Source: Argopecten irradians
Taxonomy: Eukaryota; Mollusca; Bivalvia; Pectinida; Pectinidae
Length of the DNA stretch: 64,000 nucleotides
Reading direction: 5' to 3'
Assembly: GCF_041381155.1 (NCBI RefSeq)
Contig: NC_091137.1
Location: 14,441,765-14,505,764, forward strand
Shown: positions 12,745-62,773 of the stretch, one piece after another
Layout: each line of letters begins with the position of its first letter
How positions within the stretch are numbered: the first letter of the stretch is position 1
Notes under the pieces: generated by a model
Seen by the model: only the letters and a program-made list of their open reading frames with translations
Told to the model about the DNA's origin: nothing
The model's database searches: none
Program-made: the position numbers and the translations under genes

Positions 12745-13565
12745 ACTTTATAATTTTCTTAAAATTATTTAAGAAAATTGTGTGCATTATTTAGTTCCAA
12801 TCATTGACCACTCTTGAAAATTTAGAAGTTGGTACAAGGGTAAAACAGTTTGTACTATACATGTCATGTATCCAAATCCAGTAGGTTTTAAGTTGATCAT
12901 TTGATGAAGATAACTAGCTGATGTGGACAGTGTGTCTATAACACTATAGAGGGCGATACCGCACATGAACGGTTTAGTCTGTCCTCTCTATTCTATTACA
13001 TACCTCTGTCCATTCATTTTCAAACAGTTTGAAAAAAAAAGAGATTTTTCTACCTCTGAATATCAATGAATGATGTTAAGCCAAATCATGCTTATACACT
13101 AATTTCAATAAATGTTTTAACCAATAGAAATACTATAGTCTTTGTTTTCTTTGATTAATATGAGTATGTGTCTATCAAAACATGTTGGTCCTTTAAATTC
13201 AAAAACATTTTAATTCACCTAGCAATGCCATGGAACACTGTTCATCCATATTTCCTACTTTCATGTGTGTAGTCATGGATAATGAAGAAGATTGTTACCA
13301 AAGACCTGAAGCATCCTTGGAGAATGGGGAACTAATTTTGTCTGAAATATGTTTACCATGGGCCTCCAGGAGTCGAACGGCCAGATTGGTGGGGCATAAT
13401 CAGGGAATAGATTGCAAATCCTTCTGTAGGATGGAAAGAATCTGGTTCTTATTTGAATAATGAACTTGATGCGTGATGTAGGTGAGATAGTGTGTATGAA
13501 ACAGGTCATTGTGATCAAACTTTTATCTTAACTTCAAAACAAATTTTTTTCCATTACTGAATGAA

Positions 13566-25774: not shown

Positions 25775-25897
25775 TACAAAGAGATCCAAAGAAACGCAGA
25801 GTTAAACCAGTACAGCGTCATCTCATCCAGGTGGACTTCGGAGGGGGAGATGACAGCGATGACGATAGCGACTTTGATGTAGAAAAACATCACAAAG
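25775..25897 (+). CDS. PHF14: PHF14 exon: basic start and acidic patch
   Basis: Acceptor acattttcag, donor CACAAAG|gtttta. It enters needing one base from upstream and leaves in phase 1. It encodes QRDPKKRRVKPVQRH, then an acidic DDSDDDSDFDVE, aligning with the very N-terminus of vertebrate PHF14. Only a few residues should precede it. Confidence 0.82.
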
Positions 25898-37800: not shown

Positions 37801-40800
37801 GTGCTCAGAAAGAAGGCTTGCTGTCTGAAGCTGCCCCAGAGGAATGTATGGTATGTTGTACAGTTTTTGCAGTCCCATATTGAATTCTTATATTCCAATA
37901 AGTTTATAAAAAAAATTACGGTAGATTCTCTCCGCTCAAGTATAATTTATACTGCAATGTTTTTATTTCATTTTGAAGAAGTTGCCACATGAAGATGCCA
38001 ATGATTTGTTATAGTGCAAGTGTACTCATACTTTTATTTTCCTTGTCGGATGAGTCTGTGTAAATTCCGCTATGCGCAAATTCCAACTGCGCATGCAATA
38101 CCGGAAGTCAGTGTCTTATAGCGTTTATATATTTCGCCATGATTTAGTGACACCAAACTTTCAAAAACCTTTAAAGATATACTTGTCAGCGATAATCTAC
38201 TGTAAGTTAACAACAGTGACATTACACAGTGCTAAACACATTTGTTTTGTGTAAACTTCAAGCGGCTAATCATACAAACTCTTGCATCGGTCATTCTATT
38301 CTAAGCATCTGATAGACTTTGGAAACTTCTGGAACAATACAATGCATTTCAGGTTTATTTAGTCAACAAAAGAAAGTGACAAAACGGATAACTTTTAGTA
38401 CCGGCCACATATTTAATTTATTCCACATCATCCTAGGTCCTAGGTGTATGTTGCACTATCACTTACTAAACCCTGTGACCATAGACCGCATTTGCTGCAG
38501 TTCTAATTTTTATAAATATAAAATAACACAGGTTTGCGTAAGAGAAGCAGAATAAAAAAACACATTATAAAATACCAGTCTGAGCTCTAGATCTAATGTA
38601 CCCCAGAAAGGTGTTCAAGCATAACACAGGTAAGTCACCACTTGCACAGAGACTGGACGGTGTTCTAGCGAACGACTATTTGAACAGCGAAGCAAGTGTA
38701 TCGTATCAGATACTAAATAATGTTTTCTCCTTAAATGTATCTTAATAGTGAAGTTATATCACAGAAAGATCAATTAATGAAGAATTATATAACTGCATTG
38801 GTAGAATATTGAGCTTGATCTTTACTGTTTCTACTCTAATGCTTTTCATAACTGTCATTAATGTATAAGGTGATTTTTTTTTTTGCTTGAAATTTGAGAA
38901 TTGCTTTATTGCATTTAGCCTTCATAAATTTCTATGCAAATGAAAAAAAAATCAAGTTGGCAAAGAACGTATTGCTGAATACTTTTATTATTATTGGTTG
39001 TTTTTCCACTGTAGGACATTGCGGATCCTTTCTTTGCCTACTGTAAGATGCATGCTGATAAAATGATGGCCAGAGCTAAACGGAGAAATTGGTTGGCTAT
39101 ACAGTCACATATAAAAAAACACACAGAAAAAGTGATAGAGGATGAGAAAGAAAAGGTATTTAAATTTGTTATTTGATTGTTGGTCGAGTAATTTATTATA
39201 GAAATGATATTTTATGAAAACAACAATATGTAATGTCCTACTGATTAATATAGGTAGACCCAAATGACGGAACATCCGACGCCAGATTTCTATCTAGTAA
39301 TGTTTAGTTACTTTTATTCCTTAGGCCAAAAAAATATGTCTTTTTAGGGTTACATTGGCATAAAAAATAGGGTTGTTAGGAAGTGTGTGTTTTTTGGTTG
39401 TTTTTTTTTTTTTTTTTTTTATAGTGTCTTTCACTCTGAAATAATTGCCTGAACCGGAGTCTGAGATCAAATTCCCGACTTTTAATTGGATAATATCAGA
39501 AGACACTCACTTATCAATGAAAAAATGTAAACTTATCTAAAATCTATTTGCCGTTTTGATTGAAATGTTTTGAAGTTAGGTTTCAATTAATTGTGTTTTA
39601 TTTCTAGACACGATTTGACAGAAAACTTAACCGACATCGGCAAAAGTACAGAATTTCAAAATTCAAGCGTCCGCCATCATGGGGTAGGTTAAAAATAATT
39701 TTCATGAGTTCTTTAACAAACAATAATAGTCTCATTTGATGGATTAATTGAGAATTTGAAATAGTTTTTGTATGTTTTTCTTTGTCTCATACTTCACAAT
39801 ATTCCAAAATGATGCTAGAAATAATACGGAGAATTTAACACATTAGAATTTAACACATTATATCAAACATATGGTAGAATGGTTATATTAAAGCTAAAGA
39901 TTTCCATCACACATACTTTTAGTAATGTGAAATATTATCTGTCCTCCATCATTCACACCTTCATTTAGACATTATAATTGTAATTGTGTGTGTACAGTAC
40001 CTACACAGAAACTGGTGAGATACCTGACATCCAGTCCTTCCTGTGTGAAGAAGATGCTGAGAAAGGCAGAGCTGATGGGCATTATCACTCAGGTACAGCA
40101 CGTCACCGAGGAGAAACAGGAGATGAGAAAGAAGACCCATATATCTCCAGCTTTGTCAGTTTAGAGTTCATCAGTTACTACCTCGGTATGTACTAACTTC
40201 ATCAGTTACTTCCTCGGTATTAGGAGTGTCACGGTTAACCGAAAATACGGTTAACCGAAAAATTCAACCGTACGGTTCGGTTCGGTACGATAATTCTAAG
40301 TTTCGGTTCGGTTCATTAAAAAAATAACTGTCCTATAATACCTGTAATTTACGTGTATAAACTGTATTGCAGATTATTTCATTGAAAATACGGCGAAGTT
40401 GTTTGTCAGAATCCCGAGTAATATCATATAACTTTTTATCAGTGTACTACCTGGCAGAAAAAACTCGTGTACTAACTTCATCACTTATGACCAGTATGTA
40501 TATATATTAAATCTGCGTCATGTAAAACTCATCATTAACCTCAGTTTACTATGTACGAACTAATAGTATACCAGGTATACGTATATATGTATCTCTATCA
40601 GTGACTATTAAGGTGTAGGAGGATCAGTCTCTATGTGACAATTGTATGACCTCAGGTATGTAAACTGAAACGTACTGGGGGAGATTCATCATGGTGGCAG
40701 GAGTATATGTCCTATGTATCATCATATACTATAATTAATAACTTCATCAGTCACTACCAGGTATACTAAATTATATATATAATCTGGGGGACTAATGGGT

Positions 40801-43800
40801 GGCAGGAGGACTCTCTCTATGACAATTGTATAATTGTACATGGTTAGATATATATAATCTTCATCAGTCACTACCTATATCAATAGTTACTACCTAGTAT
40901 GTCTAAAGCAGTATATATACTAAATCTGTACTATAAGGGTCAGGAGGACGTCGGTATATGACTTAACTTCATGTACTACCACAGTATTAGTATATATTCT
41001 GGGGGGGAGGGGGCAGGAGGATGTACTAACTTCATCAATCACTACCTCAGTATGTACTAACTTAATTATAATCACGTCCTATGACAATAGTATGGACTAC
41101 TTATATGATGGTATGTACTCAAACTTCATCAGTTACTACCTCAGTATGTACTAACTTCAGTAGGTACTAACTTCATCAGTCACTACTCAGTATGTACTCA
41201 GTAGATATATATCAACTACCTCGGTATGTACTAACTTCATCATCACTACATCAGTATGTACTAACTTCATCAGTTACTACCTCAGTACTAACTTCATCAG
41301 TACTACCTCGGTATGTACTACTTATCAACTATCTCAGGTATGTACTAACAATAGTATGTATAACCAGGTATATCTATATGTACTAACTTCATAGGGTAGG
41401 TATGTACTATGACCTCAATATCTAGTATACTAATATTCATCATCTACTAGAGGGATGGCATCAGGAGGATGTCCTAACTTCATCAGTATACTCTAAGTAT
41501 GTACTAACTTCATCAGTAGACCTCAGTATGTACTAATTAAATCAGTCACTACTATCTCGGTATGTACTAACTATCATCAGTTACTACTCCTGTGTATGTA
41601 CTAACTTCATCAGTTACTATATCAGTATGTCTTGGGGAGGGTATGTACTACCTATGACAAATATATTACTACCTCAGTATGTATATACTTCATCAGTTAC
41701 TATCTCAGTATGTACAGGAACTTCTATCAATAGTATACCTAGTATGTACTAACTTATAAATACTAAATCATGGGGGTTTCATCAGACACCGATACCTCAG
41801 TGTGTACAACTTCATCAGTTTTACTACCACTATGTACTACTTCATCCCGTTACTAACATCGTATGTACTAACTTCATCAGTTACTACTACCTAGAGTATG
41901 TACTTAACTTCATCAGTCACAACCTCATATGCCACTACCACTCCGGTATGTACTAAAAACTTCATCAGTTAACTTCATCAGTTAATATCTCAGTATGTCC
42001 TACCTTTATCAGTTACTTACCTCGGTTTGTACTTAACTTCATCAGTTAATTTTCTGTAACTACTAAACTTATCATTTACTACTCAGTATTGTACTAAACT
42101 TCATTCAGTCACTATCTCTGTTTGTACTAACTTCATCAGTCCACTATCTCTTGTCATGTACTAAACTTCATCAGTCTAATACCTCAGGTTAATGTACTAA
42201 CTTTCATCAGTTAATATCTGCAGTATGTACTAAACTTCATCAGTGACTACCTAAGTATGTCACTAACTTTAATTCAGTCTAAACTATTCATGTATGTACT
42301 AACTTCATTCAGTCACTACATCGGTATGTTCTAACCTTCATTCGTTACTACCTAGTATGTTACATAACTTCAATCAGTTACTACCCTCACAGTATGTAGT
42401 TATCTTCATCAGTTTCTACCTCGGTATGTAACTAACTTTCAATCAGTTACTACTCTCTCAGTATTACAAATATCAGTTAATATCTCTGTATGTACTAACT
42501 TCATCAGCTTTACATACCTCGGTATGTACTAACTTCATCAGTTAATATCTCAGTACTGTACAACTTCATCAGTTACTACCTCAGATGTAATAACTTTCAT
42601 ACAGTCACTACATCCAGGTATGTACTAACTAACATCAGTTAATATCTCAGTAAGTACTCACTTCAATCTCAGTTACTACCTCAGTAGATGTACTAAATTC
42701 ACTCAGTCACTACCTCGGTATGTACTAACTTCGAACATGTTACTTATCCCTCGGTATGTTACTTACTTCATCAGTCACTACATCGGGTAGTACTAACTTC
42801 ATCAGTTTACTATCTCAGTATGTACTATCTTCATCAGTCACTACCTCCGGTATGTACTAACTTCATCAGTTAATAAACTGGTATGTCCTACCTTTATCAG
42901 TTACTTCCTCCGTATGTACTAACTTTATCAGAAGAAGACCCATATATCTCCAGCTTTGTCAGTAGAGTTAAATCTTGGGGGAGAGGGTGCAGGAGGATGT
43001 CCTATGACAATAGTATGACAGGTAGATATATATAAATCTGGGGGAGAGGGTGGCAGGAGGACGTTCCTATGACAATAGTATGACCAGGTAGATATATATA
43101 TAAATCTGGGGAGAGAGGTGGCAGGAGGATGTCCTATGACAATAGTATGACCAGGTAGATTTATATATCAATCTGGGGGAGAGGGGTGGCAGGAGGACGT
43201 CCTATGACAATTGTATGACAAGGTAGATATATATAAATCTGGGGGAGAGGGTGGCAGGAGGACGTCCTATGACAATAGTATGACCAGGTAGATATATATA
43301 AATCTGGGGAGAGGGGGTGGCAGGAGGACAGTCCTATGACAATAGTATGACCAGGTAGATATATATAAATCTGGGGGAGAGGGTGGCAGGAGGACGTCCT
43401 ATGACAATAGTATGACCAGGTAGATATATATAAATCTGGGGGAGAGGTGGCAGGAGGATGTCCTATGACAATAGTATGACCAGGTAGATATATATAAATC
43501 TGGGGGAGAGGGTGGCAGGAGGACGTCCTATGACAATAGTATGACCAGGTAGATATATATAAATCTGGGGGAGGGGGTGGCAGGAGGGGTCCTGGACAAT
43601 AGTATGTCACAGGTAAGATATAATATAAATCTGGGGGAGGTGGCAGGATGATGTCCTATGACAATAGTATGACCAGGTAGATATATATAATCAGGTGGCA
43701 GGAGGACGTCCTATACCCTAGTATGACCAGGTAGATATATATAAATCTGGGGGAGAGGTGGCAGGAGGACGTCCTATGACAATAGTATGACCAGGTAGAT

Positions 43801-46800
43801 ATATATAAATCTGGGGGAGAGGGTGGCAGGAGGACTGTCCTATGACAATAGTATGACCAGGTAGGTAGATATGGCAAATAAATGAGGGGTGGGGGAGTGG
43901 GTGGCGATGGAGGATTCTATGACAATTAGTATGACCAGGTAGATATATATAAATCTGGAGGATAGAGGGTGGCAGGAGGACATTCCTATGACAATATATG
44001 ACCAGGTAGGATATATATAAATCTGGGGAGAGGGTGGCAGGAGGACATTCCTATGACAATAGTATGACCAGGTAGATATATAATTAAAAATCTGGGGGAG
44101 TGGGTGGCAGGAGGACGTCCTATGGTCGATCTTATGACCAGGTAATATATATCAAAATCTGGTGGAGAGGTGGCTGGAGGATGTCCTATGACAATAGTAT
44201 GACCAGGTAGATACTATATAAATCTGGGGGAGAGGTGGCAACGAGGATGTCTATGACAATAGTATAGAGGGGTAGATATATATATCAATCTGGGGGGAGG
44301 GTGGCAGGAGGATGTCCTATGACAATAGTTGACCTAGTATGACAAGTTAGATATATATTAAATCTGAGGAGGAGGGTGGCAGGAGGACGTCCTATGACAA
44401 TAGTATGACCAGGTAGATATATATAAATCTGGGGGGGAGGGTGGCAGGAGGATGTCCTATGACAATAGTATGACCTGGTAGATATATATAAATCTGGGGG
44501 AGAGGGTGGCAGGAGGACGTCCTATGACAATAGTATGACCAGGTAGATATATATAAATCTGGGGGAGAGGGTGGCAGGAGGACGTCCTATGACAATAGTA
44601 TGACCAGGTAGATATATATAAATCTGGGGGAGAGGGTGGCAGGAGGACGTCCTATGACAATAGTATGACCAGGTAGATATATATAAATCTGGGGGAGAGG
44701 GTGGCAGGAGGACGTCCTATGACAATAGTATGACCAGGTAGATATATATAAATCTGGGGGAGGGGGTGGCAGGAGGACGTCCTATGACAATAGTATGACC
44801 AGGTAGATATATATAAATCTGGGGGAGAGGGTGGCAGGAGGATGTCCTATGACAATAGTATGACCAGGTAGATATATATAAATCTGGGGGAGAGGGTGGC
44901 AGGAGGACGTCCTATGACAATAGTATGACCAGGTAGATATATATAAATCTTGGGGAGAGAGGGTGGCAGGAGGACGTCCTATGACAATAGTATGACCAGG
45001 TAGATATATATAAATCTGGGGGAGAGGGTGGCAGGAGGATGTCCTATGACAATAGTATGACCAGGTAGATATATATAAATCTGGGGGAGAGGGTGGCAGG
45101 AGGACGTCCTATGACAATAGTATGACCAGGTAGATATATATAAATCTGGGGGAGAGGGTGGCAGGAGGACGTCCTATGACAATAGTATGACCAGGTAGAT
45201 ATATATAAATCTGGGGGAGAGGGTGGCAGGAGGATGTCCTATGACAATAGTATGACCAGGTAGATATATATAAATCTGGGGGAGAGGGTGGCAGGAGGAT
45301 GTCCTATGACAATAGTATGACCAGGTAGATATATATAAATCTGGGGGAGAGGGTGGCAGGAGGACGTCCTATGACAATAGTATGACCAGGTAGATATATA
45401 TAAATCTGGGGGAGAGGGTGGCAGGAGGACGTCCTATGACAATAGTATGACCAGGTAGATATATATAAATCTGGGGGAGAGGGTGGCAGGAGGACGTCCT
45501 ATGACAATAGTATGACCAGGTAGATATATATAAATCTGGGGGAGAGGGTGGCAGGAGGATGTCCTATGACAATAGTATGACCAGGTAGATATATATATAA
45601 ATCTTGGGGAGAGGTGGGAGGAGGTCTTTATATATAAATCTGGGGAGAGGGTGGCAGGAGGACGTCCTATGACAATAGTATGACCAGGTAGATATATATA
45701 AATCTGGGGGAGAGGTGGCAGGAGGATGTCCTATGACAATAGTATGACCAGGTAGATATATATAAATCTGGGGGAGAGGGTGGCAGGAGGACGTCCTATG
45801 ACAATAGTATGACCAGGTAGATATATATAAATCTGGGGGAGAGGGTGGCAGGAGGATGTCCTATGACAATAGTATGACCAGGTAGATATATATAAATCTG
45901 GGGGAGAGGGTGGCAGGAGGATGTCCTATGACAATAGTATGACCAGGTAGATATATATAAATCTGGGGGAGAGGGTGGCAGGAGGACGTCCTATGACAAT
46001 AGTATGACCAGGTAGATATATATAAATCTGGGGGAGAGGGTGGCAGGAGGACGTCCTATGACAATAGTATGAACAGGTAGATATATATAAATCTGGGGGG
46101 GAGGGTGGCAGGATGACGTCCTATGACAATTGTATGACCAGGTAGATATAAATAAATCTAAGGGGAGAGGGTGGCAGGAGGACGTCCTATGACAATAGTA
46201 TGACCTGGTATTAAACATGTGTTTGAATATGTCAGGGATTATTGGGGGGGTTGTGTCCTGTGGATGATTATCATGTTGTGTGGTATCTGTGCATGAACAC
46301 TGGTAATATAATATATCAAGGCTCATAGTCCCTTTTATTACTGAAATGTTATATACTTTAAACCAACATACGGTATACTTTCCATTTCTTTTCATGAACC
46401 TGCCCTGTGGGTAGGAGTTAGAATTGTAACTGCTAAATTTATTGCATAATCGTAAAAGGTGACTCAGATTTGGATCTTATCTTTTCTTCTTCCTAACTAA
46501 CTTTCTGTTTCCCCTTTGTGTCTCTTGACACAGACTCACTTTGGCCTTTGGTTGAGTGCTTGCCCCTGTGAGGTAGGCTGGTTGAAACATATCATATTCT
46601 ACCACATCGGACTGAGATATCTGCACTCTCGGTGAGGGTAAGATTTCTCTGTCTTACCCAGGGCAAGAAAGCTTGCATGGGTAGAACATATACACAATGA
46701 TAAACCGGAAGTTGTAAAACGTCATATGAAAATATAAATTAACCTGTACAGTCCAATTGGACAATCAATATCATATGCGTACTCCAGCTTGTGCTTCACT

Positions 46801-52800: not shown

Positions 52801-55800
52801 CATTTTTTCTGTAACCATGGAAACATTGCTGAAAATATCATATTTTTGTACCAGGTTCGTTTCTGAAGCATAACTCTAAAACCAGAAGAGATATTTCCAC
52901 GAAACTTCATAGACACATTGGTCTTATGGTCTTGTAGTGCCTTTTGCTATTTTTAGGTTTTCATTTTTTCCATTTTTTCCGTAATCATGAAACATTGCTG
53001 AAAATAGCAGATTTTTGTGTAAGAATCGTTTCCGGAGCACAACTCTAAAACCAGAAGAGATATTTCCATGAAACTTCATAGACACATTGTTCTTATGGTC
53101 TAGTAGTGCCTTTTGCTATTTTAAGGTTTTCACTTTTTGTACTTTTTTCTGTAACCATGGAAACATTGCTGAAAATGGCAGATTTTTGTGTAAGAATCGT
53201 TTCCGGAGCACAACTCTAAAACCAGCAGAGATATTTCCATGAAACTTCATAGACACATTGTTCTTATGGTCTAGTAGTGCCTTTTGCTATTTTAAGGTTT
53301 TTCACTTTTTGTTCTTTTTTCTGTAACCATGGAAACATTGCTGAAAATGGCAGATTTTTGTGTAAGAATCGTTTCCGGAGCACAACTCTAAAACCAGAAG
53401 AGATATTTCCATGAAACTTCATAGACACATTGTTCTTATGGTCTAGTAGTGCCTTTTGCTATTTTTAGGTTTTCACTTTTTGTACTTTTTTCTGTAACCA
53501 TGGAAACATTGCTGAAAATAGCAGATTTTTGTGTAAGAATCGTTTCCGGAGTACAACTCTAAAACCAGCAGAGATATTTCCATGAAACTTCATAGACACA
53601 TTGTTCTTATGGTCTAGTAGTGCCTTTTGCTATTTTAAGGTTTTCACTTTTTGTTCTTTTTTCTGTAACCATGGAAACATTGCTGAAAATGGCAGATTTT
53701 TGTGTAAGAATGGTTTCCGGAGCACAACTCTAAAACCAGCAGAGGTATTTCCATGAAACTTCATAGACACATTTGATGTAGGACTTCTAATTTTGTATTA
53801 TGCTTTACTTTTTATTTAATATGCATGCAGTAAAACTCAGATATATCAAACTCAATTACTATGAACATTCACTTAATTCCTATGTAACTCGTCGCTGTTT
53901 AAAACAAATAAAAAATCGCACTGTTAGCTGCTGAACTTTGTTAAAGCTAAGATCAGTTCTGGTATTTTTCAAAGAAGCAAATGTTTTCAAAGTTGGTTTC
54001 ACTTTGTTAAAAAAACCATAAATATGTTTTGTATATATTCTTCAATTGCAGTTGGGTTTTAAAATACTTTCCCTATACTCTTACTAGCATATAAAATTAA
54101 TGCATTAATTGATTTAGCTCTCCATTGGCAGGGGATCTGAATGACTATGTCCTTGTTGGGAACATCTTTAGGGTCAAATAATACTCATTTAACGTCTTAT
54201 TGAGTTCAAATCTTCAAAATTGCTTCCAGAAAATAAAACTCAATGTCATACTACATGTATACATGTAAAAGCATTCGCATGACACGGCATCGTCTATTTC
54301 CCGCCAGATAATCATCAAGCCATTACCGTCAAGATCAAGTTTGTTTAATACACGTTAAAACTATGAAACTCAACAGTAAAATCCTTGTCCGGCAAGATAT
54401 ATAATTAGTACTAAAGGTCAATTTAACATGTATGAAAACGTCACATATTTTGACACAATGACCATGGCGCATACGCTTTCCAACAGCAGTTTTGGACGTC
54501 AAGCAGCCATCAAAACATAGAATGACGTCATTTGATTATTGATGACGTTGACAATGATGACGTGACACAGGGAAAGAAGTAGTTCGGTTAAAGTTCACCA
54601 TGTCAGCCAATCAGAGTGCGTACAGAGTTTATACCACGTGTGGTATAAACAAATTGTTAATCAACAGCGGCAGTGTTTATTCCATGTCCTGAGAGTTGAA
54701 TAACACCGCCTATTGTGGTAGAAATTTTGTTCCTAACTTTGTTATATTTCATTCCTACACATGTTTTTTAGCTCACCTGGCCCGACGGGCCGGTGAGCTT
54801 ATGTCATGGCGCGGCGTCCGTCATCCGTCCGTCCGTCGTCCATCCGTCAACATTTCCTTTAAATCGCTACTAGTCATAGAGTTCTGCATGGATTGTAACC
54901 AAATTTGGCCACAAACATCCTTGAGAGAAGGGGAACAGAACTTGTATAAATTTTGGCTCTGACTCCCCGGGGCAGGAGGGGCGGGGCCCAATAGGGAAAA
55001 TAAAGGTAAATCCTATAAATCGCTACTTGTCCTAGAGTTCTGCATGGATTGTAACCAAATTTGGCCACAAACATCCTTAGTGGAAGGGGAACAGAACTTA
55101 TGTAAATTTTGGCTCTGACCCCCTGGGGGCAGGAGGGGCAGAGCCCAATAAGGGAAATAGAGGTAAATCCTATAAAACGCTACTTGTTCTAGAGTTCTGC
55201 ATGGATTGTAACCAAATTTTGCCACAAACATCCTTGGGGGAAGGGGGACAGAACTTGTAAAAATTTTGGCTCTGACCCCCCGGGGGCAGGAGGGGCGGGG
55301 CACAATAGGGGAAATAGAGGTAAATCCTATAAATCGCTACTTGTCCTAGAGTTCTGCATGGATTGTAACCAAATTTGGCCACAAACATCCTTGGCGAAAG
55401 GGGAACAGAACTTGTATAAATTTTGGCTCTGACCCCTGGGGGCAGGAGGGGCGGGGCCCAATAGGGGAAATAGAGGTAATCTTATAAATTGCTACTTGTC
55501 CTAGAGTTCTGCATGGATTGTAACCAAATTTGACCAGAAACATCCTTGGAGGAAGGGGAACAGAACTTGTATGAATTTTGGCTCTGATCCCCTGGGGGCA
55601 AGAGGGGTGGGGCCCAATAGGGGAAATAGAGGTAAATCCTTTAAATCGCTACTTTTCCTAGAGTTCTGCATGGATTGTAACCAAATTTGGCCACAAACAT
55701 CCTTGGCAGAAGGGGAACAGAACTTGTATAAATTTATGCTCTGACCCCCCGGGGGCAGGAGGGGCGGGGCCCAATAGGGGAAATAGAGGTTATCTTATTT

Positions 55801-58800
55801 CCCTATTTGGCCCGCCCCTCCTGCCCCAGGTCGAGCAAATTTTATACAAGTTCTGTTCCCCTTTCGCCAAGGATGTTTGTGGCCAAATTTGGTCCTAGAT
55901 TTCTGCATGGATTGTAACTAAATTTGACCAGAAACATCCTTGGGGGAAAGAGAACAGGAAATTGTATAAATTTTGGCTCTGACCCCCTGGGGGCAGGAGG
56001 GGCGGGGCCCAATAGGGGAAATAGAGGTAAATACTGTAAATCGCTAATAGTCATATAGTTCTGCTTGGATTTTAACCAAATTTGGCCCAGAAACATCCTT
56101 GGGGTTAACAGAATTTGTATAAATTTTGGCTTTGACCCCCTGGAGCAGAAAGATGGGGCCTAATAAGGGAATTCAGAAAAGAAACAATGAACTTGAATTC
56201 AGAACATTCCTAGGCATTACAAACCAGGTGAGCGATACAGGCCCTCTGGGCCTCTTGTTTTAATTACATTACTTGGCATTACAAACCAGGTGAGCGATAC
56301 AGTAAAACAGTCAACAGTAAACTCAACCAATTTAAAAGATTTACAATGTTGAGTAAATTTTAAGATAAAGGAGAAGGTACGTTAAGACTCGAATATGGCC
56401 CCAAAATTAATTCTCCAGTAAAGAACAACATACTTTGCCATATAACAGTTGAATACATTTGTTAACACATTACATCCTGAAAATATCCCACATGTGCCAA
56501 TTATGTTCACTATGACGTCATCAACATGCAGTTTCCTGCCATTTTTCACAAAAACCCTTGAAAAATCATACTTTTTGAGTGGTTTTCTCTAAAAATGAAT
56601 GTGGCCGCCTTCGTGGAGCAGAAAGATATTTTCACACGTTGTGTATCATGTATTTACGCATATCCATGCAAAATATAAAGTTGCTCGAATGTGGCGGCCA
56701 AATCCATTTCAAGCCTTTTCTAACCTAAAGATAATGAATTTTTAACAAAATTTGGCGAAAAGAGGAAAATCATCAATTTGATGACGTCATAGGTGGAGCA
56801 CATCGTGTACATGGTTATACAAAGTTATGTTTTGATGAATGGCAAGTATGAGTGTATTTATTGAAGTGAAATTGATGTGGATCAGAGTTAATATTTTTCA
56901 GCCTGAAAAATTAAGGCCAAAGACTGGTCCTATCATATCTACTTCTTTATGATACTACTAAAGTATTAATGAAAATCTCTTTACCATAAAAAATTGTTGA
57001 GTTATCTATCTATATGTAAATGTTTATGTATCCTATCTACACTCATTTGTACTGATGGGCTGCAAATTATGAAATGAATTAAAATTGACTCAAATTAAAT
57101 ATACCTTGTACATTGAATACCTCAACATAAAAAAGTATTGATTTGTAATTATCTATTTTTTCATTTGAATGCTGTAGACTGAACCAACACCTGACACATT
57201 AATCAAACTGGGCCAGCCACCTCCATCCAAGAAACAGCGGGGAGGGAAAGAGGAACAGTCCCGCGAGGAGTTAATGTGTGCCGTATGTAACGGTCTGGGG
57301 GACTTTACCAACACTGTCAGGTACATAGTGTAGTGTGATATAGGATAAAGATAGGCTCCCAGGAATGTGTGTCGTGTGTAACAGTCTGGGGGACTTTACC
57401 AACACTGTCAGGTACACAATGTAGTGTGATATAGGGTACAGATAGGCTCCCAGGAATGTGTGTCGTGTGTAACGGTCTGGGGGACTATACCAACACTGTC
57501 AGGTACACAGTGTAGTGTGATATAGGGTACAGATAGACTCCCGGGAATGTGTGTCGTGTGTAATGGTCTGGGGGACTATACCAACACTGTCAGGTACACA
57601 GTGTAGTGTGATATAGGGTACAGATAGACTCCCGGGAATGTGTGTCGTGTGTAACGGTCTGGGGGACTATACCAACACTGTCAGGTACACAGTGTAGTGT
57701 GATATAGGGTACAGATAGACTCCCAGGAATGTGTGTCGTGTGTAACGGTCTGGGGGACTATACCAACACTGTCAGGTACACAGTGTAGTGTGATATAGGG
57801 TACAGATAGACTCCCAGGAATGTGTGTCGTGTGTAACGGTCTGGGGGACTATACCAACACTGTCAGGTACACAGTGTAGTGTGATATAGGGTACAGATAG
57901 ACTCCCGGGAATGTGTGTCGTGTGTAACGGTCTGGGGGACTATACAACACTGTCAGGTACACAGTGTAGTGTGATATAGGGTACAGATAGGCTCCCAGGA
58001 ATGTGTGTCGTGTGTAACGGTCTGGGGGACTATACCAACACTGTCAGGTACACAGTGTAGTGTGATATAGGGTACAGATAGACTCCCGGGAATGTGTGTC
58101 GTGTGTAACGGTCTGGGGGACTATACCAACACTGTCAGGTACACAGTGTAGTGTGATATAGGGTACAGATAGGCTCCCCAGGAATGTGTGCGTGTGTAAC
58201 GGTCTGGGGGACTATACCAACACTGTCAGGTACACAGTGTAGTGTGATATAGGGTACAGATAGACTCCCGGGAATGTGTGTCGTGTGTAACAGTCTGGGG
58301 GACTATACCAACACTGTCAGGTACACAGTGTAGTGTGATATAGGGTACAGATAGGCTCCCGGGAATGTGTGTCGTGTGTAACGGTCTGGGGGACTATACC
58401 AACACTGTCAGGTACACACAGTGTAGTGTGATGTAGGGTACAGATAGACTCCCGGGAATGTGTGTCGTGTGTAACAGTCTGGGGGACTATACCAACACTG
58501 TCAGGTACACAGTGTAGTGTGATATAGGGTACAGATAGACTCCCGGGAATGTGTGTCGTGTGTAACGGTCTGGGGGACTATACCAACACTGTCAGGTACA
58601 CAGTGTAGTGTGATATAGGGTACAGATAGACTCCCAGGAATGTGTGTCGTGTGTAACGGTCTGGGGGACTATACCAACACTGTCAGGTACACAGTGTAGT
58701 GTGATATAGGGTACAGATAGACTCCCGGGAATGTGTGTCGTGTGTAACGGTCTGGGGGACTATACCAACACTGTCAGGTACAGTGTACAGTGTAGTGTGA

Positions 58801-61800
58801 TGTAGGGTACAGATAACTCCCAGGAATGTGTCCGTGTGTAACGGTCTGGGGGACTATACCAACACTGTCAGGTACACAGTGTAGTGTGATATAGGGTACA
58901 GATAGACTCCCCAGGAATGTGTGTCGTGTGTAACGGTCTGGGGGACTATACCAACACTGTCAGGTACACAGTGTAGTGTGATGTAGGGTACAGATAGACT
59001 CCCGGGAATGTGTGTCGTGTGTAACGGTCTGGGGGACTATACCAACACTGTCAGGTACACAGTGTAGTGTGATATAGGGTACAGATAGGCTCCCGGGAAT
59101 GTGTGTCGTGTGTAACGGTCTGGGGGACTATACCAACACTGTCAGGTACACAGTGTAGTGTGATATAGGGTACAGATAGACTCCCGGGAATGTGTGTCGT
59201 GTGTAATGGTCTGGGGGACTATACCAACACTGTCAGGTACACAGTGTAGTGTGATATAGGGTACAGATAGACTCCCGGGAATGTGTGTCGTGTGTGTAAC
59301 GGTCTGGGGGACTATACCAACACTGTCAGGTACACAGTGTAGTGTGATATAGGGTACAGATAGACTCCCGGGAATGTGTGTCGTGTGTAACGGTCTGGGG
59401 GACTATACCAACACTGTCAGGTACACAGTGTAGTGTGATATAGGGTACAGATAGACTCCCGGGAATGTGTGTCGTGTGTAATGGTCTGGGGGACTATACC
59501 AACACTGTCAGGTATACAGTGTAGTGTGATATAGGGTACAGATAGACTCCCGGGAATGTGTGTCGTGTGTAACGGTCTGGGGGACTATACCAACACTGTC
59601 AGGTACACAGTGTAGTGTGATATAGGGTACAGATAGGCTCCCGGGAATGTGTGTCGTGTGTAACAGTCTGGGGGACTATACCAACACTGTCAGGTACACA
59701 GTGTAGTGTGATATAGGGTACAGATAGCTCCCAGGAATGTGTGTCGTGTGTAACGGTCTGGGGGACTATACCAACACTGTCAGGTACACAGTGTAGTGTG
59801 ATATAGGGTACAGATAGACTCCCGGGAATGTGTGTCGTGTGTAACGGTCTGGGGGACTATACCAACACTGTCAGGTACACAGTGTAGTGTGATATAGGGT
59901 ACAGATAGGCTCCCGGGAATGTGTGTCGTGTGGTAACGGTCTGGGGGACTCTGGACTATACCAACACTGTCAGGTACACAGTGTAGTGTGATATAGGGTA
60001 CAGATAGGCTCCCGGGAATGTGTGTCGTGTGTAACGGTCTGGGGGACTATACCAACACTGTCAGGTACACAGTGTAGTGTGATATAGGGTACAGATAGAC
60101 TCCCGGGAATGTGTGTGTCGTGTGTAACGGTCTGGGGGACTATACAACACTGTCAGGTACACAGTGTTAGTGGAGTGTGATATAGGTACAGATAGACTCC
60201 CGGGAATGTGTGTCGTGTGTAACGGTCTGGGGGACTATACCAACACTGTCAGGTATACAGTGTAGTGTGATATAGGGTACAGATAGACTCCCGGGAATGT
60301 GTGTCGTGTGTAATGGTCTGGGGGACTATACCAACACTGTCAGGTACACAGTGTAGTGTGATGTAGGGTACAGATAGACTCCCGGGAATGTGTGTCGTGT
60401 GTAACGGTCTGGGGGACTATACCAACACTGTCAGGTACACAGTGTAGTGTGATATAGGGTACAGATAGGCTCCCAGGAATGTGTGTCGTGTGTAACGGTC
60501 TGGGGGACTATACCAACACTGTCAGGTACACAGTGTAGTGTGATGTAGGGTACAGATAGACTCCCAGGAATGTGTGTCGTGTGTAACGGTCTGGGGGACT
60601 ATACCAACACTGTCAGGTACACAGTGTAGTGTGATATAGGGTACAGATAGGCTCCCGGGAATGTGTGTCGTGTGTAACAGTCTGGGGGACTATACCAACA
60701 CTGTCAGGTACACAGTGTAGTGTGATATAGGGTACAGATAGACTCCCAGGAATGTGTGTCGTGTGTAACGGTCTGGGGGACTATACCAACACTGTCAGGT
60801 ACACAGTGTAGTGTGATATAGGGTACAGATAGGCTCCCAGGAATGTGTGTCGTGTGTAACGGTCTGGGGGACTATACCAACACTGTCAGGTACACAGTGT
60901 AGTGTGATATAGGGTACAGATAGACTCCCAGGAATGTGTGTCGTGTGTAACGGTCTGGGGGACTATACCAACACTGTCAGGTACACAGTGTAGTGTGATA
61001 TAGGGTACAGATAGGCTCCCAGGAATGTGTGTCTGTGTGTAACGGTCTGGGGGACTATACCAACACTGTCAGGTACACAGTGTAGTGTGATATAGGGTAC
61101 AGATAGGCTCCCAGGAATGTGTGTCGTGTGTAACAGTCTGGGGGACTATACCAACACTGTCAGGTACACAGTGTAGTGTGATATAGGGTACAGATAGGCT
61201 CCCAGGAATGTGTGTCGTGTGTAACGGTCTGGGGGACTATACCAACACTGTCAGGTACACAGTGTAGTGTGATATAGGGTACAGATAGGCTCCCGGGAAT
61301 GTGTGTCGTGTGTAACGGTCTGGGGGACTATACCAACACTGTCAGGTACACAGTGTAGTGTGATATAGGGTACAGATAGACTCCCGGGAATGTGTGTGTG
61401 TGTAACAGTCTGGGGGACTATACCAACACTGTCAGGTACACAGTGTAGTGTGATATAGGGTACAGATAGGCTCCCCGGAATGTGTGTGTGTGTAACAGTC
61501 TGGGGGACTATACCAACACTGTCAGGTACACAGTGTAGTGTGATATAGGGTACAGATAGGCCCCCAGGAATGTGTGTCGTGTGTGTAACGGTCTGGGGGA
61601 CTATAGCAACACTGTCAGGTACACAGTGTAGTGTGATATAGGGTACAGATAGACTCCCGGGAATGTGTGTCGTGTGTAACGGTCTGGGGGACTATACCAA
61701 CACTGTCAGGTACACAGTGTAGTGTGATATAGGGTACAGATAGGCTCCCGGGAATGTGTGTCGTGTGTAACGGTCTGGGGGACTATACCAACACTGTCAG

Positions 61801-62773
61801 GTACACAGTGTAGTGTGATATAGGGTACAGATAGGTCCCCAGGAATGTGTGACATGTGCAACGGTCTGGGGGACTATAGCAACACTGTCAGGTACACAGT
61901 GTAATGCGATATAGGGTACAATAGGCTCCCGGGAATGTGTGTAACGGTCTATGATATTTTAATTAAAGAAACCTTTGGAGATGGTGTGTACAGTTCTTAT
62001 ATGATGGTTTCTCAAGCTTTCTTTCATTCTTCCCAAATGTCTGATCAAATGCATGTATAACATGTATTTAAGTATTTAAACACATTTTTGTAGAATTTTT
62101 TTAAATATTACATTCATGTGTTATTTTGCTGTTAGTTATATGTCAGCTAGAAAGAGAAGAAAATGTTAATTTCATATGTAAATATTTGACAGTTGTGATG
62201 AGTGCAAGCTGAGCTACCACTTTGGATGTTTGGATCCACCAGCTAAAAAATCACCCAAACAGCGTGGATACTCCTGGCATTGTGAGGCCTGTGACCCTAC
62301 AGATAACTCGGTACATCTAACGCTTCTATCAAACCATTATAATACTTAGTTCGAATATACATTTGGAGATGGATTCAAAGATATGTGCACCAATACGTTG
62401 TTATAAGGGGAGATAATTTTTGTTAAGCTCCCAATATGAAATTGGCGTGGATGGTTTGCTCTGTTGTGTCAATAACTTTCTTTCTTAATTTGGACAACAT
62501 TATTTTTGTTTTAAGGGGATAATACTTTCTTTATCGCTTGTGTGGATATGCCATTAATGAGGGAAATAACTTACTACAATTTTAATTTGCTTTCATTTTG
62601 ATATATAAAGATGGTCTAGTAATAAGGGGAGGTAACTTGCTTTCTTGATTAATGTAGATATTTTCATTATAAAATATCTATTAAATAATGTGTATGATAT
62701 ATTTTAGGATGAAGAGGAACAGGATATGGAGGAGGATTCTGGCAGCAAGAATGATGAAAATGTGGGAAAATAA
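25775..62773 (+). CDS. PHF14: PHD finger protein 14, 20 exons recognised
   Basis: Exons: 25775-25897, 26123-26364, 32327-32419, 34596-34651, 35082-35182, 35505-35560, 35887-35998, 36524-36618, 37802-37850, 39015-39155, 39608-39683, 39998-40185, 48624-48719, 48946-49049, 50405-50536, 50816-50954, 51651-51791, 57178-57320, 62193-62310, 62708-62773. About 755 codons were recovered. Order: basic start and acidic region; PHD1; zinc knuckle and extended PHD (ECSLCED to YFHVTCAQKEGLL); helical linker; PHD2 (CAIC to YYHLGCLDPPL); basic linker; PHD3 (CAVC to YHFGCLDPP); acidic tail. This is the vertebrate PHF14 layout. PHF14 is a nuclear histone H3 reader linked to transcriptional repression. The start exon and one coiled-coil exon are missing from my model, and exons 3 and 12 carry frame breaks. 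Introns total over 34 kb, much of it repeats. Confidence 0.92.
26123..26364 (+). CDS. PHF14: PHF14 exon: acidic low-complexity region
   Basis: 242 bases ending in phase 0 at GTAGAG|gtatga. The first half is almost all Asp, Glu and Ser. The second half holds VKQEIP, a psi-K-x-E SUMO-type motif. Such a region is expected to be disordered. Confidence 0.85.
26625..26713 (+). repeat. SINE-like dispersed repeat, copy 1
   Basis: Shares gttagaattttaact, attgcatgattgt, tgactaaatctgggatctta and tcttttgtcttc with the segment at 46399-46490. The shared order suggests a dispersed short element, probably a SINE body. Neither copy has a clear RNA polymerase III promoter. Confidence 0.5.
26818..28066. mobile_element. 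Non-autonomous TIR DNA transposon, 1.25 kb
   Basis: The ends are cagcgccgttacaacaag and its inverted counterpart cttattgtaacggcgctg, one mismatch in 18, flanked on each side by TA (26816-26817 and 28067-28068). A TA target duplication suggests the Tc1/mariner superfamily, though the identity is uncertain. No transposase frame is present. Two internal segments recur: actgacttttccgct near 27190 and 27725, and an aatatatt-containing block near 27265 and 27595. Confidence 0.7.
28166..32283 (+). mobile_element. Hairpin-start element with 157-bp tandem core, family 1
   Basis: It begins after a T run with a palindrome (agctcacctggccc, GAA loop, gggccggtgagct) and a TCCGTCC-type run. About 25 units of 157 bp follow, each with atcctttaaatcgctac, gtaaccaaatttggccac and ggggcggggcccaatag. 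It ends with a short unique tail and caggtgagct, an inverted match to the start. Composite bivalve elements with a tandem core of about 160 bp (the pearl type) have this design, and some have been linked to Helentron-like transposition. That link is inferred here. The GGCCC-GGGCC terminal hairpin present in the second copy is missing. Confidence 0.85.
32327..32419 (+). CDS. PHF14: PHF14 exon: first PHD1 ligands, with a frame break
   Basis: Acceptor actttacag, phase 0, in agreement with the preceding exon. The frame reads to RVTICCV and then TTG TCT, whereas the family requires ICCVCLGD. Dropping one T of the four at 32399-32402 restores CLGDIS and the phase needed by the next exon. The break falls in the first zinc-binding pair of PHD1. 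I regard it as a probable sequencing error or allele. Confidence 0.8.
32461..34193 (+). mobile_element. Hairpin-start element, family 2, with nested insertion
   Basis: It starts after a T run with a stem formed by ggtcatctgaccc and gggtcagtttgacc. Three tandem units of about 145 bp follow (tgctgggatgaagggctacc, tgaccttgacctact), then a diverged region. It ends with cagatgacc, an inverted match to the start, and a terminal hairpin (ggcccttgggcc) followed by tcttgt. A 798-bp TIR element is inserted at 33282-34079. The reversed copy lies at 18259-19130. Confidence 0.75.
33282..34079. mobile_element. TIR element nested in the family 2 repeat
   Basis: The ends are cagggatcaatctag and ctagattgatccctg, perfect 15-bp inverted repeats, flanked by a 5-bp direct repeat catgg (33277-33281 and 34080-34084). 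The surrounding family 2 sequence reads on across the insertion (catggtcatgacc, compare 32973-32985). The interior has gggga-rich subterminal repeats near both ends and no transposase frame. CAGGG ends resemble hAT elements, but those usually make 8-bp duplications. Confidence 0.75.
34596..34651 (+). CDS. PHF14: PHF14 exon: PHD1 second ligand pair
   Basis: 56 bases encoding EEDDEIVECDNCGVSVHEG, which includes the C-X2-C and the histidine of PHD1. Acceptor ttaacag, donor CACGAAG|gtaaac. It requires two bases from the preceding exon, which is how the frame break there was detected. Confidence 0.92.
35082..35182 (+). CDS. PHF14: PHF14 exon: end of PHD1
   Basis: Encodes CYGISENQSNASTE, a Ser/Thr-rich loop, and EPWFCDACKADCKP, closing PHD1 and giving the first zinc-knuckle cysteine. 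Phase 1 to phase 0. Confidence 0.93.
35505..35560 (+). CDS. PHF14: PHF14 exon: zinc knuckle
   Basis: Encodes TCELCPNPGGIFKETDAGK, which is nearly identical to the vertebrate knuckle. Acceptor gattcag, donor GGAAA|gtgagt, ending in phase 2. Confidence 0.93.
35887..35998 (+). CDS. PHF14: PHF14 exon: WVHLVCALY segment
   Basis: 112 bases encoding WVHLVCALYTPGVAFGDVDK and the following LSPVTLFEM, the link between the zinc knuckle and the extended PHD. Highly conserved; ends in phase 0 at GCTCGG|gtaagt. Confidence 0.93.
36524..36618 (+). CDS. PHF14: PHF14 exon: extended PHD core
   Basis: Encodes ECSLCEDARFSRTGVCISC and DAGMCRTYFHVTC, holding most zinc ligands of the extended PHD. Acceptor ctgtaacag, donor GTCACATG|gtaggt, phase 2. 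Confidence 0.93.
36942..37578. mobile_element. TIR element with 5-bp target duplication
   Basis: The ends are cagtgttctccccagg and cctgggagaacactg, inverted with one extra C in the left arm. They are flanked by the direct repeat tttag (36937-36941 and 37579-37583). Length is 637 bp, with a GC-rich subterminal zone (gcgcggcgcagcgcg) and an AT-rich middle, and no transposase. The CAG start and 5-bp duplication are shared with 33282-34079. Confidence 0.78.
37802..37850 (+). CDS. PHF14: PHF14 exon: AQKEGLL segment
   Basis: 49 bases encoding AQKEGLLSEAAPEECM, the end of the extended PHD. Acceptor cttgtttcag, donor TGTATG|gtatgt, phase 0. Confidence 0.9.
37851..39014 (+). other. PHF14 intron, nothing recognised
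   Basis: AT-rich intron between two exons whose phases agree. I found no exon, element ends or tandem repeat in it. Confidence 0.6.
39015..39155 (+). CDS. PHF14: PHF14 exon: DIADPFFAYC and basic helix
   Basis: 47 codons, phase 0 to 0. DIADPFFAYCKMHADKM matches the family. A Lys/Arg/Glu-rich stretch follows that is probably helical. Confidence 0.93.
39608..39683 (+). CDS. PHF14: PHF14 exon: basic linker
   Basis: 76 bases encoding TRFDRKLNRHRQKYR and KFKRPPSWG, strongly basic. Acceptor ttatttctag, donor CATGGG|gtaggt, phase 1. Confidence 0.85.
39998..40185 (+). CDS. PHF14: PHF14 exon 12, with an in-frame stop from an extra TT
   Basis: Encodes VPTQKLVRYLTSSPSCVKKM and LRKAELMGIITQ, in family order, up to HISPALSV. 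The frame then meets TAG at 40162-40164, because the sequence reads GTTTAGAG where GTAGAG would give VEFISYYL. A partial second copy of this exon end at 42931-42970 reads GTAGAG without the extra TT. With two T fewer the exon is 186 bases and ends CTCG|gtatgt in phase 1. Probable sequence error in a repeat-rich, noisy stretch, though a real lesion cannot be excluded. Confidence 0.8.
40166..42930 (+). repeat. 31-bp minisatellite made from the PHF14 exon 12 donor
   Basis: The unit is ttcatcagttactacctc followed by ggtatgtactaac. It equals the last 19 bases of exon 12 (encoding FISYYL) plus the 5' splice site and the first intron bases. Some 80 units follow, many with insertions, deletions or truncation. 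Between about 40580 and 41050 fragments of the neighbouring 65-bp unit are mixed in. Variation is far heavier than in the other arrays, suggesting consensus errors as well as real decay. Confidence 0.85.
40221..40440 (+). mobile_element. DNA-transposon end fragment inside the 31-bp array
   Basis: The segment opens with gtgtcacggttaaccgaaaa and contains repeated ggttcggttcgg words, which look like a TIR-transposon terminus with subterminal repeats. No matching opposite end is present, so it is a truncated insertion. It separates the first array unit from the rest. Confidence 0.4.
42931..42970 (+). pseudogene. Second partial copy of the PHF14 exon 12 end
   Basis: The segment agaagacccatatatctcc followed by agctttgtcagtagagtt repeats exon 12 bases 40131-40168 with the intact GTAGAG form. 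It marks the junction of the 31-bp array with the 65-bp array and runs directly into the first 65-bp unit. Confidence 0.7.
42966..46210 (+). repeat. 65-bp minisatellite in the PHF14 intron, about 50 copies
   Basis: The unit contains gtagatatatataaatctgg, gggagagggtggcaggagga and cgtcctatgacaatagtatg, then accag. Units from about 44360 to 46080 are nearly identical, differing mostly at one C/T position (gacgtcc or gatgtcc). Units before 44350 are ragged. Each unit has a cag|gtagat junction that could act as a weak donor. I found no exon that the unit derives from. Confidence 0.93.
46399..46490 (+). repeat. SINE-like dispersed repeat, copy 2
   Basis: Matches 26625-26713 in order: gagttagaattgtaact, attgcataatcgtaa, gtgactcagatttggatctt and atcttttcttcttcc. 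It lies just past the 65-bp array. Confidence 0.5.
48241..48354. repeat. Short inverted-repeat element
   Basis: The arms gtaggacagggaaatctcta and agagatttttctgtcctat are complementary apart from a few mismatches, 114 bp overall. A MITE-like remnant is likely; a related tract (gtaagatttctctgtcttac) lies at 46638-46657. Confidence 0.5.
48624..48719 (+). CDS. PHF14: PHF14 exon: end of the helical region
   Basis: 32 codons, phase 0 to 0: LLADIDQLKDHSQQLKLEGT and NIYSTLTDMTVK. The heptad-like Leu/Ile spacing fits the C-terminal end of the vertebrate coiled coil. The acceptor follows a strong CT tract (ttctgttgcttcag). Confidence 0.85.
48946..49049 (+). CDS. PHF14: PHF14 exon: linker before PHD2
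   Basis: 104 bases encoding a Pro/Thr-rich linker (PLTMPEMFSTKRTPVKPP) and SPPAIINQ. The last codon is split (CA|gtgagt) and completed by the G that starts the PHD2 exon. Confidence 0.87.
49275..50404 (+). repeat. 63-bp minisatellite made from the PHF14 PHD2 acceptor
   Basis: The unit contains ttagcttccttacctgacag, gtgtgctgtatgtaagttta, and ctatgtaagattagtgttg before the next copy. The end of the polypyrimidine tract, the cag acceptor and the first codons (G TGT GCT -TA TGT AA) match the true exon start at 50405. There are about 18 copies, and the last copy merges into the exon. Two units (near 49500 and 50220) carry internal duplications. Confidence 0.93.
50405..50536 (+). CDS. PHF14: PHF14 exon: PHD2
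   Basis: Encodes CAICKKSCNPHLLVRCDLC, KKYYHLGCLDPPLTRMPKKT and a split Trp, the bulk of PHD2 with seven of its eight zinc ligands or close. Nearly identical to the vertebrate sequence. Starts in phase 2 and ends in phase 2. Confidence 0.95.
50816..50954 (+). CDS. PHF14: PHF14 exon: end of PHD2 and basic linker
   Basis: Encodes QCSECDHSSSG, closing PHD2, and a charged linker with RRLREKIKEPFKWSPD that matches the vertebrate R-IKEPVKF region. Phase 0 end. Confidence 0.93.
50955..51650 (+). repeat. PHF14 intron with diverged family 2 tandem core
   Basis: From about 51130 to 51560 there are four decayed units with ggtctgtagttgtgctgg, tgaccttaactttcattcaa and ctgtagcatgctggcatgag, the same family as 32500-32900. 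No hairpin or terminal parts remain. Confidence 0.55.
51651..51791 (+). CDS. PHF14: PHF14 exon: Lys-rich linker
   Basis: 47 codons, phase 0 to 0, with KGGAKKGRQKKKVNKDD (nuclear-localisation-like) and a Ser/Thr/Pro spacer. The donor GTAAAG|gtacct is chosen because the next exon needs phase 0. Without splicing, the frame ends at TGA 51843-51845, which would give an isoform lacking PHD3. Confidence 0.82.
52334..52521. mobile_element. Fold-back (long inverted repeat) element
   Basis: Two arms of about 85 bp are almost perfectly complementary: ggttacac...ttattttttaaaagttac, and gtaacttttaaaaaataact...gtgtaacc. They enclose a loop of about 14 bases near 52430-52445. The left arm has an extra 20-bp tandem copy (gtggttgttgaatattgaa). 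The transcript would form a long hairpin. Confidence 0.8.
52622..53775 (+). mobile_element. Hairpin-start element with 171-bp tandem core, family 3
   Basis: It starts with a stem (tatcccccgcccaac, AAA loop, gttggcgggggata), then gtctgtccgtccgt, then about 6.5 units of 171 bp (ggagcacaactctaaaacca, tggtctagtagtgccttttg, ctgtaaccatggaaacattg). It stops inside a unit at cacattt without a terminal hairpin, so it is 3' truncated. Confidence 0.8.
54770..56257 (+). mobile_element. Hairpin-start element, family 1, more complete copy
   Basis: It has the same start palindrome and TCCGTCC run as 28166-32283, and about eight 157-bp units. The end is complete: ccaggtgagcg (inverted match to the start), then a 13-base hairpin ggccctctgggcc at 56240-56252 and tcttgttt. 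A stretch near 55790-55890 is inverted relative to its neighbours. The last 40 bases of the tail (from cattacttggcatt to gatacag) are partly repeated at 56266-56300. Confidence 0.85.
57178..57320 (+). CDS. PHF14: PHF14 exon: linker and first half of PHD3
   Basis: Encodes a Pro/Lys linker (TEPTPDTLIKLGQPPPSKKQ) and ELMCAVCNGLGDFTNTV, the first ligand pair of PHD3. Donor GTCAG|gtacat, phase 2. Its last 47 bases are the seed of the array that follows. Confidence 0.92.
57321..61960 (+). repeat. 91-bp minisatellite made from the PHF14 PHD3 exon donor
   Basis: Each unit contains a near-copy of exon bases 57274-57320 (atgtgtgtcgtgtgtaacgg, then tctgggggactataccaaca, then ctgtcag), the donor gtacac, and 40 bases of intron (tgtagtgtgatatagggtac, agatag, ctcccgg or ctcccagg). 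There are about 50 units, highly homogeneous. The first unit keeps gactttacc as in the exon; later units read gactatacc. The array fills almost the whole intron. Confidence 0.95.
62193..62310 (+). CDS. PHF14: PHF14 exon: second half of PHD3
   Basis: Encodes CDECKLSYHFGCLDPPAKKS and PKQRGYSWHCEACDPTDNS, the remaining ligands of PHD3, almost as in vertebrates. Acceptor atttgacag, donor AACTCG|gtacat. Confidence 0.95.
62708..62773 (+). CDS. PHF14: PHF14 terminal exon
   Basis: 21 codons and TAA (62771-62773): an acidic tail DEEEQDMEEDSGSKNDENVG and Lys, comparable with the acidic end of vertebrate PHF14. Acceptor tatattttag. Confidence 0.9.
   Translation, partial: DEEEQDMEEDSGSKNDENVGK

Follow-up and report, generated by a model that had tools for sequence, protein, structure and literature searches.

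What leads the introns of a single gene to hold long tandem repeats built from that gene's own splice junctions? The question is raised by a scallop gene lying in a window of 64,000 nucleotides from Argopecten irradians, the window being the whole stretch of DNA that was analysed. The gene occupies the + strand from ~24.0 to 62.8 kb of the window. Its first coding exon (MAENNLALEEVDPSVEFLYKTM; 24016..24081, 3′ edge approximate) was placed by tblastn of the N-terminus of a protein, P0001 (E=1.4e-11), and the gene model sets 20 further exons with AG/GT junctions at 25775..62773 (+). P0001, of 813 residues, is the best protein match and is identical to the model at 745 of 755 aligned residues, with seven of the ten differences sitting in the corrupted end of exon 12. 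The source of P0001 is probably the same species or a sister species, and its 3061-base contig suggests that it is probably transcript-derived. The closest named protein relatives come from the scallops Ylistrum, Mizuhopecten and Pecten (83-85% identity over the searched region). The gene model, P0001, the PHF14 chains 7d8a and 7d86 of the PDB, which part of the model matches, and the PHD-type Pfam domains found in P0001 all uphold the identification of the gene as PHF14 made in an earlier note on this DNA.

That note had also described minisatellites of 31, 63 and 91 bp, each spanning a PHF14 splice junction, and all three were found where it had placed them, on the + strand like the gene. 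Array A starts in the exon at 39998..40185, which supplies its 5′ splice site (CTCG/GTATGT, cut at 40185/40186). Its 31-bp unit consists of 19 exon bases and GTATGTACTAAC, with 12 of its bases intronic, and is clean for 1.7 copies at 40167..40220, where wraparound alignment gave a mismatch of 0.019 and zero indels. Only this part of the 31-bp array is secure; the remainder is noisy and probably misassembled. Array C (49286..50419) has 18.0 copies of a 63-bp unit that carries a 3′ splice site (TTACCTGACAG/GTGTGCTGTATGTAA) and 15 exon bases, and it runs into the PHD-finger exon at 50405..50536 (CAICKKSCNPH...), whose 3′ splice site is 50404/50405. Array E (57273..61942) begins inside the exon at 57178..57320, which ends in MCAVCNGLGDFTNTV. 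Its 91-bp unit, present in 51.2 copies, consists of 48 exon and 43 intron bases around the 5′ splice site GTCAG/GTACAC, and the exon's own site is at 57320/57321. The arrays and their junction content are thus direct observations.

Self-comparison of the locus, with 50 bases taken around every one of 39 PHF14 junctions, gave many local junction-spanning copies only at arrays A, C and E (52, 17 and 50 matches, respectively). Among the other 36 junctions, 35 had no match within 6 kb in this comparison and the 5′ splice site of exon 11 had one weak match within that distance; a few had single weak matches farther away than 6 kb. Units were assigned by wraparound alignment, and three control stretches of the window gave zero matches.

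The units of arrays A and C contain further splice-like motifs. Between 40150 and 42960, the 31-bp unit holds GTATGT, TACTAAC and TTCATCAG in that order, with 43 GTATGT and 27 TACTAAC in the stretch. The three motifs resemble the yeast consensus for a 5′ splice site, for a branch point and for a 3′ splice site, so each 31-bp copy looks as if it held the few signals that an intron needs. In array C (49286-50419), most of the 63-bp units have TATGTAAGT just past the 3′ splice site, a good look-alike of a 5′ splice site, by which a copy could in principle serve as a micro-exon of ~11 bases.

A fourth array, B, was absent from the earlier note's list. It lies at 42969..46210 (+), with 49.6 copies of a 65-bp unit containing the 5′ splice site CAG/GTAGAT; the two commonest forms account for 30 of the 38 units compared. 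Its link to PHF14 comes from a protein match to P0001. The exon ending at 40185 and the exon starting at 48624 are separated, in P0001 as in the three named scallops, by 36 residues (ERNSKIDNIKRNITENITQNNILQKQEDVLRRQYDK in P0001), and tblastn of this 36-residue peptide found no full copy of the corresponding exon in the window. The last 11 codons of the missing exon are nevertheless repeated through array B, as tblastn against the window revealed. The commonest unit ends CAGGAGGACGTCCTATGACAATAGTATGACCAG/GTAGAT and encodes QEDVL(stop)Q(stop)YDQ, as compared to QEDVLRRQYDK in P0001, and this reading stops precisely where the exon does, with the phase that the following exon requires. Taken alone, a match of 11 codons is weak (best tblastn E-values of 0.25-0.35 in the window), but the position, the phase and a splice site placed exactly where the exon ends agree, which lends the assignment weight. 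On this combination of sequence features, array B is therefore most likely the missing PHF14 exon's 5′ splice site. It would add a third 5′ splice site to the two 5′ sites and one 3′ site that had been described correctly as repeat units. The inner differences, R, R and Q changed to TGA, CAA and TAG, require a single C-to-T or G-to-A substitution each if the ancestral codons were CGA, CGA and CAG, as this reading assumes.

The loss of that exon coincides with a faulty stretch of the assembly. Exon 12 (39998..40185) as assembled contains an in-frame TAG (GTCAGTTTAGAG) and reads ...ALSV(stop) because of two extra bases, whereas P0001 reads ALSVEFISYYL. A second copy of the exon-12 coding end, without the stop, was read directly at 42932..42968 (+); it fits neither unit, is joined directly to array B, and is a probable assembly join. 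Between these two ends lies the noisy rest of array A (40221..42931, +). There, wraparound alignment found 770 bases assignable to neither unit, followed by short pieces that switch between A-like and B-like and, after these, ~35 A copies. These ~35 copies have 0.083 mismatches, 0.075 insertions and 0.019 deletions per base, while arrays E, C and B have insertions of 0.004-0.015 and deletions of 0.003-0.009 per base. Three shorter pieces of array A are indel-rich as well (insertions 0.028-0.069, deletions 0.034-0.053), and not always insertion-rich. The first ~240 bases of the stretch (40221-40460), which stand between copies of array A and are unlike either array, contain ACGGTTAACCGAAAAT repeats and GGTTCGGTTCGG; we would guess that they are possibly a transposon end, which would be hAT-like.

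Overall, the sequence at 40221-42968 is probably misassembled or raw-read sequence. Since it is indel-rich, with a doubled exon-12 end and the next exon missing, array A is secure only at 40167-40220. Its apparent length and the missing exon reflect this fault, and the expected true order would be exon 12, array A, the missing exon, array B. A broken allele at exon 12 is possible, but is less likely than misassembly because P0001 is intact. Drafts of the bay scallop genome are reported to have been gap-filled with PacBio reads (PMC7090048), which would fit the noise at 40221-42968. Copy numbers of arrays B, C and E are given as assembled and may be wrong. Draft assemblies and gene models can evidently have their exons broken by such junction arrays, as has happened to PHF14 here.

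The copies at the edge of an array differ from those in its interior. In arrays C and E, the interior copies are near-uniform and the exon's own copy is unlike them. The exon entered by array C reads CAICK, and 12 of the 15 decoy units compared read CAVCK. In array E, the commonest exon part, found at 28 of 49 junction sites, encodes MCVVCNGLGDYTNTV (MCVVCNGLGDY), while the exon has MCAVCNGLGDFTNTV (MCAVCNGLGDF). At the last of these positions, F is confined to the exon and the adjoining copy; 46 of the 47 others have Y, and one is unreadable. Several of the interior states are those of other scallops. CAVCK is found in all three named species, as is the final Q of the missing exon, which is K in P0001, and the GDY of array E is found in two of the three.

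The array thus probably keeps an older scallop codon at several sites, as judged by comparison of the copies with related proteins. Where this exon has changed, some of the array codons agree with other scallops, so the arrays are probably older than the exon changes. The argument does not extend to every difference. The V of array E at the A/V site matches only Pecten among the three named scallops, so not every array difference is ancestral, and V as the older state in array C holds within scallops only, since I is common at this site in non-scallop molluscs. In the 34 full-length units of array E, six of the 91 positions are CpG-related and carry 23 of the 61 differences. All of this fits old, homogenised arrays whose edge copy would be held apart by selection on the protein.

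The repeats supply the gene with a large number of decoy splice sites. Array E has 49 junction sites including the real one, leaving 48 decoys with CTGTCAG/GTAC. Array C has 17 decoys (CCTTACCTGACAG) besides the real 3′ splice site, array B has 38-40 with CAG/GTAGAT, and noisy array A has roughly 43-52. With array B included, the sum comes close to the earlier estimate of about 150 decoys. Most interior copies have intact splice signals. P0001, a single intact protein, is correctly joined at all four array junctions, with the exon-proximal site used each time, and for this reason the decoys seem to be silent; as read from one protein, this would be compatible with minor use of decoys. If transcription products did read on past the real site, they would meet a stop before the next decoy in arrays E, A and B. 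Translation from the array C decoy at 50280 likewise meets stops, and from the one at 50343, where the spacing is 62 instead of 63, it reads open but shifted. A rule under which the most upstream 5′ splice site is used, as in the human F7 gene, would explain arrays A, B and E, and a mirror rule favoring the 3′ site nearest the exon body would explain array C.

We regard it as highly probable that the arrays are intronic minisatellites of the kind called mirages in amphioxus, formed by junction duplication and array growth, with homogenised interiors and silent decoys. In each of the four introns, a short exon-intron junction segment would have been duplicated in tandem, and the array would then have grown by ordinary tandem-repeat turnover, through slippage and unequal exchange. 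The outermost copy would be the real exon edge, subject to protein-level selection and outside the homogenisation of the array. Interior copies, being non-coding, would drift together, with some keeping codons since changed in the exon and others gaining stops or losing CpGs. Splicing would take the exon-proximal site, meaning the first 5′ or the last 3′ splice site, and the ~150 decoys would normally be silent across tissues. The founder duplication and the age of the arrays are what we infer from the present copies.

Two explanations would give the arrays a very different standing, and we consider both very improbable. That the arrays are assembly artefacts has a strong case at 40221-42968, given its indels, the alternation of A and B, the duplicated exon end and the lost exon. 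The indel rates of B, C and E are low, however (0.024, 0.013 and 0.007 per base), copy variants recur within these arrays, and junction content cannot arise from random error. Were the arrays instead kept for a function, decoys would give frame-broken transcripts that tune the PHF14 level. In E, A and B, use of the next decoy does run into a stop, as it does at one of the two C decoys translated, and the preserved signals of the interior copies could be read in the same way. Homogenisation alone accounts for intact signals, though, P0001 is normally joined, and amphioxus repeats of the same kind are reported not to disturb splicing (PMC3087553, PMC3902484).

Other explanations concern why there should be four such arrays. 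Scallop introns rich in minisatellites may simply contain four arrays that happened to start across junctions, which we hold to be a serious possibility if short of an even chance. A model that scattered founder segments uniformly across the 37-kb gene, with its 40 junctions, and required at least 10 exon and at least 6 intron bases gave single-array probabilities of 0.017 for A, 0.054 for B, 0.052 for C and 0.080 for E. The joint probability was 7e-5 for A, C and E and 3.9e-6 for A, B, C and E, and this last product speaks against chance. Considering all eight arrays in the gene (those with at least 2.8 copies, with the CGTC microsatellite at 28211 and repeats of two copies set aside), the probability rises to 0.003 for at least four and 0.028 for at least three, where the missing exon was placed arbitrarily and two of the eight (28260, 54855) belong to one 157-bp family. 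No figure is a clean significance level, because the locus was noticed before the test, and a scan of many windows would yield such cases. On the other hand, selection should, we expect, rather remove duplications that touch coding edges. A shared process behind the junction arrays is plausible, and so is a hotspot for minisatellite birth at junctions, which might involve splice-motif microhomology, transcription-linked breaks or R-loops at exon edges in this lineage. The four junction arrays within one gene favor a real hotspot, as does the presence of repeats of this kind in several genes of amphioxus (PMC3087553, PMC3902484), but 36 of the 39 junctions compared show nothing similar, and we view the hotspot as tentative and rather unlikely. 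Inspection of the array ends by eye revealed no clear founder microhomology. It is tempting to speculate further that scallop exon-intron junctions are preferred birthplaces of minisatellites, that many genes have such arrays, and that each preserves an older exon edge. This broader proposal is doubtful, less probable again than a hotspot as such; if true, arrays beside living exons would be a within-gene record of coding change. The case makes two questions testable: whether splice junctions are minisatellite hotspots, and how the spliceosome chooses among dozens of near-identical sites.

The window has other repeats and features. The 157-bp tandem family is present at two places in introns of PHF14 (28211-32196 and 54815-55798), in both cases preceded by a short repeat resembling CGTC or CGTCCGTC, and looks like a dispersed repeat element. 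At 52346-52510 there are two direct copies of a 20-bp repeat (AGTGGTTGTTGAATATTGAA), with an inverted copy of most of it ~105 bases on, at 52490; a 171-bp array at 52680-53773 adjoins this region. The Pecten maximus PHF14 protein (P0004) has five tandem 12-residue units resembling SPST(N/S)RPSVDKF, in a stretch that matches the window exon at 51651-51791, and these units represent a coding minisatellite in the PHF14 of another scallop. Upstream of PHF14, a 55-bp array at 13564-15297 contains ~31 copies, as judged from its length, with periods of 110 and 165 bp too. Farther upstream, the + strand at 826-7361 is C2H2 zinc-finger coding, with Pfam zf-C2H2 above the cut-off in two of the three stretches scanned. 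RNA genes were not found in the window, either by ARAGORN (no tRNA) or with Rfam at gathering thresholds.

The idea that exon-boundary satellites belong to no described class cannot be maintained, as comparable repeats exist in the human F7 and CBS genes and, above all, in amphioxus. Human F7 resembles arrays A, B and E in having homologous repeats that carry 5′ splice sites, with the real site first. Intron 7 of F7 has a variable number of 37-bp repeats, the first of which contains the genuine 5′ splice site, and splicing normally selects just the 5′ splice site lying farthest upstream (PMC6627357). F7 differs in that there is one array and splicing was tested in cells, while PHF14 splicing is read from one protein. 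The human CBS repeat is like array A, a 31-bp tandem repeat at an exon-intron boundary in which each unit holds a splice site; the reference for it is reportedly Lievers 2001, and CBS has one array in one human gene. This VNTR is listed at exon 13-intron 13 (PMC1395315). Tandem repeats at human exon-intron boundaries in segmental duplications are also discussed (PMC2812944). Tandem genomic duplication is described elsewhere as a route to intron gain (PMC3443670). Such duplications resemble those in PHF14 in placing splice-like sequence in tandem inside genes, and differ from them because in PHF14 there is no new intron and the copies stay within old introns.

The closest parallel is the mirages of amphioxus, minisatellite-like repeats that span intron-exon boundaries in Adh3 and the globins BflGb6 and BflGb9 (PMC3087553), with TnC and PGBD5 added to the list of genes by another paper (PMC3902484). 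In the first of these papers they are reported to leave splicing undisturbed, with concerted evolution inside the clusters from which the cluster boundaries are excluded (PMC3087553). The same features are found in PHF14. Units span a boundary in C and E as whole arrays, in the clean 1.7 copies of A, and in B by its protein match; AG/GT signals are present in the repeats of E, C and B; a regular mRNA is indicated by P0001, which is protein evidence; and C and E have a concerted interior and an excluded boundary. As described for amphioxus, the units span 5′ or 3′ exon edges and supply decoy AG/GT signals with a normal mRNA, the boundary copies stand outside homogenisation as in C and E, and the draft genome was misassembled at the BflGb6 mirage, as PHF14 probably was at 40221-42968. 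The differences are the host, a mollusc and not a cephalochordate, the presence of four arrays in one gene, and the copy numbers, 18-51 in PHF14 versus 3 in one BflGb6 haplotype and 6 in the other. Among the titles listed in a search of one open-licence library for exon-boundary repeats in scallops, bivalves and molluscs, none dealt with such repeats in a bivalve. The PHF14 arrays are an unusually dense case of a known and little-studied class, unusual for being four in one gene and for occurring in a mollusc. They extend a little-known lancelet phenomenon to molluscs, with a single gene that offers four cases of it, at both 5′ and 3′ splice sites.
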